In this document: in pieces, positions 22,341-23,913 of the stretch | Numbering within the stretch: the stretch's first letter is position 1 | How the letters are laid out: each line of letters starts with the position of its first letter | Assembly: GCF_000296465.1 (NCBI RefSeq) | Contig: NZ_JH815203.1 | Span: 682,001 to 746,000, forward strand | Reading direction: 5' to 3' | Source of the DNA: Barnesiella intestinihominis YIT 11860 | Lineage (GTDB): Bacteria; Bacteroidota; Bacteroidia; Bacteroidales; Barnesiellaceae | Length of the DNA stretch: 64,000 bases | Position numbers and translations under genes: made by a program | Notes under the pieces: model-generated | The model's database searches: none | Seen by the model: only the letters and a program-made list of their open reading frames with translations | What the model was told of the DNA's origin: nothing

Positions 22341-22853
22341 TCAAAAATAGTTCGTCGGGCGGTGTGGCCGGCGGTTACAGGCCAACCGGATATCGCTCTT
22401 CACGGCCGACATCGCCCCCTTGTATTGCAACTGACGGCGAACGCTCTCCTCGGGTTGTTTCGTAGCGAACCATTGATTCAAAACATGATGTACTATCGCC
22501 CGTTCAAGCTGATGACAAATTGATTCATCGAGCGCCAACGGGCGTTGCCGAGACAAAAAAACGGCAAAAACAAGTGCTGTTTCGGAGGAAACAGACTCAT
22601 CGGATAAATAGGCAGACAAAGCCCGCATCATTTCGTCCCGGGCATCGGCAAGCCAACGGGAAAGAAATGGTTTATCGTCTTCGGAAAAAATTATAGAACG
22701 GCTCCACCCCAACTTCAAATCAGACTGTCCCACTAAACTTTTTGCCACATAGGAACTTTCGGCAATCAACTCACGCAATATCTGTTCTTCTGAGAATGAA
22801 AATACGACTGTCTCAAACTCAAACGGATTTTCTACATTTCTTATCTTTTTCAT
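22341..22853 (-). CDS. Hypothetical protein, cassette gene C
   Basis: A 170-residue hydrophilic protein with no signal peptide or membrane span. It begins KKIRNVENPFEFETVVFSFSE and ends in a basic tail (CNRRPHRPTNYF). I do not recognise the family. The ATG at 22853 overlaps the previous stop as ATGA, with AAGAAGGA just upstream as a ribosome-binding site, so translation is probably coupled. Upstream in-frame codons to 22907 translate the end of gene B in another frame and are rejected. Third gene of an overlapping cassette (23700-22341) that resembles small phage or prophage-remnant modules. Confidence 0.65.
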   Translation of the reverse strand: MKKIRNVENPFEFETVVFSFSEEQILRELIAESSYVAKSLVGQSDLKLGWSRSIIFSEDDKPFLSRWLADARDEMMRALSAYLSDESVSSETALVFAVFLSRQRPLALDESICHQLERAIVHHVLNQWFATKQPEESVRRQLQYKGAMSAVKSDIRLACNRRPHRPTNYF

Positions 22854-23299
22854 TTCCTTCTTATGATATAAAAAAACAATATGACAATAAAAATCATTAG
22901 GACACACCCCGACACTCTATGAGTGTCCATTTCCTTTGAACTACGATGGTTTTGTTCCTTCTCCGAACGAGATTGTAAGGCAGCGGCCTCGTTTAATGAA
23001 TCAGAAACGGCAGTCTCGTTCCGAGCGACAACTTTTTTCGATTGTTTCAAACGAGTAATCGAAATGGAAGGATTGACAGTTTCGTCCCGTACGGAATCGA
23101 ACACATCGACATGTGTCCATTCCCATTCGGTAAGCCCCGACCATTCATTCCGACACAGCGAATCAATGACGACATGTAAATCGCGATCAATAGAATGCAC
23201 ACGATTTTCCCGAGCCTCACCGACTGTCTGCCGAGACGTATGACATGCCCAAACAAAAACTGGAAAAACAATACACAAAATATAAGGAAACCTTTTCAC
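22850..23299 (-). CDS. Spanin-like lipoprotein with C-terminal membrane anchor, cassette gene B
   Basis: A 149-residue protein starting at GTG (23299), which overlaps the previous stop as GTGA and is preceded by a strong Shine-Dalgarno sequence AAAAAGGAGG. The N-terminus is a hydrophobic signal ending in FVWAC, a weak lipobox. A polar, helix-prone middle follows (KQSKKVVARNETAVSDS, AAALQSRSEKEQ), and the C-terminus is one membrane span, VLMIFIVILFFYIIRRK. Outer-membrane lipid anchor plus C-terminal inner-membrane span is the layout of phage unimolecular spanins. No lysin or holin is adjacent, so the role is inferred only. A frame open to 23395 was rejected in favour of this start. Confidence 0.6.
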   Translation of the reverse strand: MKRFPYILCIVFPVFVWACHTSRQTVGEARENRVHSIDRDLHVVIDSLCRNEWSGLTEWEWTHVDVFDSVRDETVNPSISITRLKQSKKVVARNETAVSDSLNEAAALQSRSEKEQNHRSSKEMDTHRVSGCVLMIFIVILFFYIIRRK

Positions 23300-23700
23300 G
23301 ATACACCTCCTTTTTGCATACGATAAATTGTCAACAGAGCCGACCGCTCGGACAAATAAAAACGAGGAGCTCGTTTTTCTGCCAATATCGTACAAAGCGC
23401 ATCGTTAAACGGGACTTGGGGACGTCGCCTCAAATAGCTCGCCAACATATTGGCCAAATCGTTGTACATCTCTGTTCTTGTCGACGACACACATCGAGGT
23501 GAATAGCCTTTAAAAATTCGTTTCACATTCCGCCTCGCTTCCTCATAACTGATATAGAAACGAGGAGCTATGGAATAAACCACATGCCTGACAATCTGCT
23601 CCCGGGGAACATTCACGGCCATTTTTCCCAATGATTTGAGGGCTTCGTTGTATGCCCTAAACAAATCTCGGTCTCTTTCTTCCTTGTAATATAGTTCCAT
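23296..23700 (-). CDS. Hypothetical protein with duplicated APRFY motif, cassette gene A
   Basis: A 134-residue basic protein whose two halves share the motif APRFYIS...ARRNVKRIF and APRFYLS...ALLTIYRM, suggesting an internal duplication of a roughly 60-residue helical unit. There is no signal peptide. The ATG at 23700 (MELYYKEERDRDLF) is chosen over an upstream extension with no sensible sequence. A Bacteroidetes promoter lies 69 bases upstream. First gene of the overlapping cassette. I recall similar PRFY-containing small proteins near phage-type genes in Bacteroides but cannot name a family. Confidence 0.65.
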   Translation of the reverse strand: MELYYKEERDRDLFRAYNEALKSLGKMAVNVPREQIVRHVVYSIAPRFYISYEEARRNVKRIFKGYSPRCVSSTRTEMYNDLANMLASYLRRRPQVPFNDALCTILAEKRAPRFYLSERSALLTIYRMQKGGVS

Positions 23701-23768
23701 ATAATTCTTATTACAAGAAGAGATACAAAAACATAGCTTTCTCAAAAGCCTTTACGAAACGGGTAACA

Positions 23769-23800
23769 CAAATATATATCCAAATTGGTATAAATACAAA
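23769..23800 (-). promoter_or_regulatory. Promoter of the three-gene cassette
   Basis: Minus strand TTTG (23800-23797), 20 bases, TATATTTG (23776-23769). Confidence 0.65.
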
Positions 23801-23913
23801 TATTTATGGTTATTTTACCACAATATTATATTTTTTTATTTTTTCAGATGTTAATTTAGAGACGAGATGGAGTAGAAAATATGTATTTTTGAGGTGATAA
23901 ACCAAATAATAAA

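Follow-up and report, generated by a model that had tools for sequence, protein, structure and literature searches.

Gene transfer agents (GTAs) have been studied mostly in alphaproteobacteria, and the agent of Rhodobacter capsulatus (RcGTA) has a core head-tail cluster and a long tail. A 2026 gut study described GTA-like packaging in Bacillota and lateral transduction in Bacteroides (PMC12946183); the head operon (portal, scaffold, capsid, terminase) of the agent of Faecalibacterium prausnitzii (FpGTA) is present in all Faecalibacterium genomes examined (PMC12946183). A literature search that took in neither subscription papers nor preprints found nothing linking Barnesiella with GTAs, and no such system is described in the accessible portions of the literature that names Bacteroidales or Bacteroidota together with GTAs. 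Here, we analyzed a window of 64,000 nucleotides from Barnesiella intestinihominis YIT 11860, i.e., the whole stretch of DNA under study, in which three overlapping genes, A, B and C (Table 1), probably represent one locus of a domesticated short-tailed phage with particle genes spread over at least six loci, that is, of a GTA.

A sequence-only reading had described a three-gene overlapping cassette with Shine-Dalgarno (SD) sites that are rare in Bacteroidetes, preceded by a single promoter and located between ordinary genes. The layout was verified: A and B overlap as GTGA, B and C overlap as ATGA, and SD sites precede both B and C. The rarity of such sites holds for the window. We counted 45 window open reading frames (ORFs) with a length of 150 aa or more from the first ATG, a definition that leaves B (149 aa, GTG start) outside the count. 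In gene C alone (1/45), a 5-base SD core is present in the 20 nt before the start, and for this reason SD use is unusual for the window; the core is expected in 2.7% of random 20-mers. The gene overlaps and the SD site before B are kept in the other eight Barnesiella genomes, in which the site before C is AAAAAGGAG in some and merely purine-rich in others. The divergent intergenic region between A and the GSCFA gene (23701-23913) is strongly conserved in nine Barnesiella genomes; from its sequence elements (Table 1), it is likely to be a promoter under repressor control, serving either A-B-C or the divergent GSCFA gene. The proposal of a single promoter agrees with the presence of one conserved promoter-like region before A, which is common to the divergent gene. 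The same region also contains an inverted repeat, TTGTA..TACCAA. No operator common to the upstream regions of all loci was found in a by-eye comparison of the loci.

Table 1. Features of the cassette (window positions) and of the particle-gene loci (positions on contig 1)
Feature	Position	Strand	Remark
Gene A	23296..23700	-	ATG start, 134 aa
Gene B	22850..23299	-	GTG start, 149 aa
Gene C	22341..22853	-	ATG start, 170 aa
Shine-Dalgarno AAGGAGG before B	23306..23312	-	window sequence
Shine-Dalgarno AAGAAGGA before C	22855..22862	-	window sequence
Promoter element TATATTTG	23769..23776	-	invariant across the genus Barnesiella; of the Bacteroidetes -7 type, TAnnTTTG
Operator-like inverted repeat TGGTAAAATAACCA	23807..23820	-	identical in 8/9 Barnesiella genomes
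Second operator-like repeat TTGTATTTATACCAA	23785..23799	-	overlaps the -33 region
Tail protein (~870 aa)	near 479 kb, contig 1		
Portal	near 499 kb, contig 1		
Three genes, two related to phage gp70 and gp68	507-510 kb, contig 1		
A-B-C cassette	704-706 kb, contig 1		
Scaffold, capsid and three more genes	835-839 kb, contig 1		
Terminase	931-933 kb, contig 1		

Searches of A, B and C against Pfam and NCBIfam gave no accepted family. The role of C as a head-to-tail adaptor of the short-tailed-phage type is well supported by its structural model (mean pLDDT 85), which has a fold in common with P22 gp4, T7 gp11, Sf6 gp7 and the SU10 adaptor, at middling Z scores from 8.6 to about 6 (SU10 8.6, T7 7.8, KP32 7.3, Sf6 6.6, P22 6.3); all structures at ranks 1-15 are phage adaptors or chains of tail or connector complexes. 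Foldseek alone gave nothing significant for C, and its sequence had no significant match among solved structures. The profile of C matched, with E = 1.8e-13, a gene (L036 10782-11285) of another Bacteroidales genome, G027, where it is part of a compact prophage and directly neighbors a P22-type portal.

The protein encoded by A is basic (pI 9.9), with a confident, all-helical predicted structure (pLDDT 92). Its two halves resemble each other, both containing an APRFY(I/L)S motif (APRFYIS.. and APRFYLS..), and the protein looks like an internal tandem duplication of a small helical domain. A Foldseek comparison of this structure with the PDB and a viral library returned no match, nor did a scan of viral contigs with A as the sole query; a PHROGs search gave only phrog_27246 (unknown function). 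In three temperate phages of Bacteroides, homologues of A are located directly upstream of a rhomboid-like gene and the large terminase. The structure also has weak helix-turn-helix-like matches (Z about 5), and our guess is that A may be a small terminase or, possibly, a DNA-binding protein or regulator.

Gene B encodes an N-terminal lipobox (VWAC) and a C-terminal membrane anchor, and both the lipobox and the hydrophobic anchor are kept in every B checked (nine Barnesiella genomes and two others), despite strong sequence change. The unimolecular spanin gp11 of phage T1 likewise has a lipobox at the N-terminus, AWAC, which is similar to that of B and works, and a C-terminal membrane anchor (PMC6139136); the likeness considered here is one of topology, and the window B differs in having a periplasmic cysteine, C49, that is absent in the 58 u-spanins surveyed (PMC6139136). 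The identification of B as a spanin-like lysis protein with unimolecular-spanin topology is moderately supported. In the G027 prophage, a protein of B-like topology adjoins a peptidase M15 endolysin and a small protein that we read as a holin. In G068, B is a 331-aa fusion (L032 9934-10929) in which a lipoprotein-plus-anchor part is joined to a rhomboid-like membrane domain; in the phages, by contrast, the rhomboid is a separate gene after A. Several genomes have A and C adjacent with no B between them (L034, L035, L135, L137, L138), so the spanin-like part appears to be optional, or located elsewhere. The product of gp23 of phage BS-TP4, suspected from length and position to be a homologue of B, was rejected; its sequence resembles adaptor proteins instead.

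The cassette is found at the same place in all nine Barnesiella genomes, and its neighbors are ordinary genes, as had been claimed: GSCFA and murF-alr on one side, DUF3667 and further conserved genes on the other. Identity to the window copies across Barnesiella is 73-84% for A, 66-76% for C and about 29-37% for B. In a scan of genome contigs, A was detected at 21 Bacteroidales loci, with C adjacent to it in 18 of the 21. In two genomes from distant families, G068 and G029, the cassette is at the same site as in Barnesiella, close to murF-alr, GSCFA and a slyD-type gene.

Each Barnesiella genome (9/9) also contains exactly one P22-type portal, one SU10-type capsid protein and one terminase, as well as one gene for a structural (tail) protein of ~870 aa, which is interrupted by contig ends in G008, a fragmented genome. 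In the window genome, the particle genes occupy at least six separate loci on contig 1 (C1), spread over ~454 kb (Table 1). Neighbors include miaA, a Dps-type ferritin, H+-pyrophosphatase, fumarase, GSCFA and murF-alr; within the neighborhoods of the six loci, the adjacent ORFs are housekeeping or unrelated genes, with no integration or replication genes. The two genes near the portal that are related to gp68 and gp70 possibly encode ejection-type proteins. The terminase of the window genome has intact TerL motifs (KARQWGGST, SE, VVDIGGR, ESNT, HHDD); the ATPase motifs are conserved in all homologues and the nuclease motifs are present in this copy, so that the enzyme is intact by its motifs and predicted to be able to package DNA. 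The terminases of the nine genomes are 48-51% identical to that of Bacteroides phage BF1-TP2. It should be noted that the terminase has as divergent neighbors a DNA methylase of the Eco57I type and a partner gene (L091 6587-8750, 8826-10901), an arrangement kept in several Barnesiella genomes. A search for an endolysin or holin in Barnesiella found none, and neither the holin of G076 as a query nor the 2155-aa prophage protein had a detectable homologue there. The idea of a domesticated lysis or tail module stands for the components, B being spanin-like and C tail-adaptor-like, but not for a lone module; the cassette is one locus of a dispersed set with portal, capsid, scaffold and terminase elsewhere.

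Using one genome from each of about 110 other Bacteroidales families, we surveyed the co-occurrence of these genes. Portal and capsid were confined almost entirely to genomes with A and C (G029, G036, G068, G076 and G096, i.e., five other families) and were absent from about 100 others. The exceptions were the compact prophage of G027 and a divergent portal/capsid set without A or C in G033; in G096, where A was not found, the distance from C to a contig end is 0.6 kb. Overall, A was present in 6 of the 8 families that have portal and capsid, and in 0 of the 103 that lack them (hypergeometric probability about 1.2e-8, with families taken as independent). The sequence-only reading had proposed checking co-occurrence in Bacteroidales genomes and in phages, and the cassette does track portal, capsid and terminase, with A homologues in three Bacteroides phages. 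In G033, a short portal (459 aa) is located beside a capsid gene, and the terminase is on another contig (L089, L106, L108); this may be a domesticated set that is decaying, or one of a different kind. The cassette lies within 3-8 kb of a capsid-scaffold cluster in G076 and in two other metagenome-assembled genomes (MAGs), with a holin-like gene between the two in the case of G076; such proximity supports a grouping of the cassette with the head genes. These observations bear on the possibility that A-B-C was recruited for a role of its own in the envelope or in regulation, without relation to the rest of the phage genes. Such a role would fit a cassette that is alone between housekeeping genes in Barnesiella, an A without a known fold match and an optional B; however, the cassette is confined to genomes with portal, capsid and terminase, is beside the capsid cluster in several, and includes a head-to-tail adaptor by fold, and we regard a separate role as very unlikely.

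The nearest phages for A, terminase, capsid and portal are the same three Bacteroides phages, BF1-TP2, BKO1-TP3 and BS-TP4 (PQ571263, PQ571269, PQ571277), which are the only matches of the capsid among phage records. They have homologous A, terminase, portal, capsid, scaffold, a 900-aa structural protein and adaptor-like genes, with only 23-47% identity for A, TerL, capsid and portal; unlike the Barnesiella set, they are complete phages of 64-68 kb that carry integrase and replication genes. The records of these phages (L029, L030, L031) label the terminase as a tail spike protein and one rhomboid-like gene as a glycoside hydrolase; these annotations look wrong. Between families, the identity of capsid, portal and terminase is 59-72%, but it is only 34-46% to the related G027 prophage and phage BF1-TP2. 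In phylogenetic trees, the 14 genomes form one group apart from the phages and the prophage, with bootstrap support of 94 for terminase, 64 for portal and 64 for capsid, and Barnesiella forms one clade with bootstrap support of 100 for all three genes.

The ratios of nonsynonymous to synonymous rates (dN/dS) in the closest pair indicate purifying selection: 0.01 for A, 0.08 for C, 0.06 for terminase, 0.07 for portal and 0.03 for capsid, with 0.21 for B. The GC3 of A, B and C tracks that of murF-alr, a flanking host gene, across nine genomes (r 0.96-0.99). Taken together, conserved flanks, dN/dS, GC3 and trees indicate that the genes were inherited vertically within the host lineage and kept under purifying selection. 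If the genes were instead scattered relics of old prophages, kept by chance and decaying, a fate that is common for prophages and might agree with the fast evolution of B (dN/dS 0.2-0.5 over close pairs), we would not expect full-length single copies without internal stops in 9/9 genomes, at positions conserved across families, under strong purifying selection and with near-perfect co-occurrence. This explanation is already largely refuted by the intact, constrained genes, and we give it hardly any weight. The earlier suggestion of a phage-derived, domesticated block is supported by the adaptor fold of C, the A homologues in phages, purifying selection and the conserved loci. Close homologues in conserved non-phage loci had been named as evidence against that suggestion; they do exist in the literal sense, and they show domestication, not a non-phage origin.

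Since head, neck, packaging and ejection genes are scattered as single copies without adjoining integrase or replication genes, no self-propagating phage is possible. Among known systems, such a gene profile points to GTAs (PMC12946183, PMC11841831) and, less likely, to PBSX-like defective particles. In the latter case, a domesticated defective phage would form DNA-filled particles without gene delivery, and would kill competitors or serve altruistic lysis. The same gene set is expected for such a particle, which would look the same at the sequence level, and a C-like adaptor and a B-like spanin suit any released particle; however, the possible ejection-type proteins near the portal (gp68 and gp70 homologues) and the intact terminase are not obviously needed for pure killing, and we consider this alternative unlikely. 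The points that we counted against a GTA include the failure to find an endolysin or holin in Barnesiella, the absence of B from some genomes with A and C, the lack of a promoter motif common to the loci, and the bootstrap support of only 64 for a single clade in the portal and capsid trees. The best explanation is a highly dispersed, previously unrecognized GTA of podovirus origin. In this GTA, a host-controlled trigger would cause all loci to be expressed together, and scaffold and capsid protein would form the head. The terminase, perhaps with A as a small subunit or DNA-binding partner, would package fragments of host DNA into the head by way of the portal; C would then close the portal and join the ~870-aa tail protein. 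B and an endolysin, the latter not yet located, would break the envelope, and the particles would deliver DNA to related cells. We infer particle formation, packaging of host DNA and transfer from the gene content. We lean, by a small degree, toward an active, independently evolved GTA in gut Bacteroidales, the most dispersed described so far, that would move chromosomal DNA between Barnesiella cells.

If this is true, Barnesiella and related Bacteroidales, a major gut order, would have an added route of gene exchange, and the set would represent a domesticated phage that arose independently of the known ones; another consequence would be that prophage finders based on clusters miss agents with capsid, portal and terminase hundreds of kilobases apart. 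Compared to known systems, the Barnesiella set resembles FpGTA, which is also from a gut bacterium, is podovirus-like and has genes in more than one locus (PMC12946183). FpGTA, of the Bacillota, consists of two operons with about 125 kb between them, and a single 10.5-kb cluster contains the head genes (PMC12946183), whereas in the Bacteroidales set portal, capsid and terminase are each at their own locus, and the six loci extend over about 454 kb. FpGTA particles have been observed (PMC12946183), whereas the Barnesiella set is known from genes alone. RcGTA is likewise phage-derived, vertically inherited, distributed over several loci and host-controlled, with a headful-type terminase (PMC7947584, PMC11841831); unlike RcGTA, the Barnesiella set descends from a short-tailed phage lineage of Bacteroides and is apparently of independent origin.
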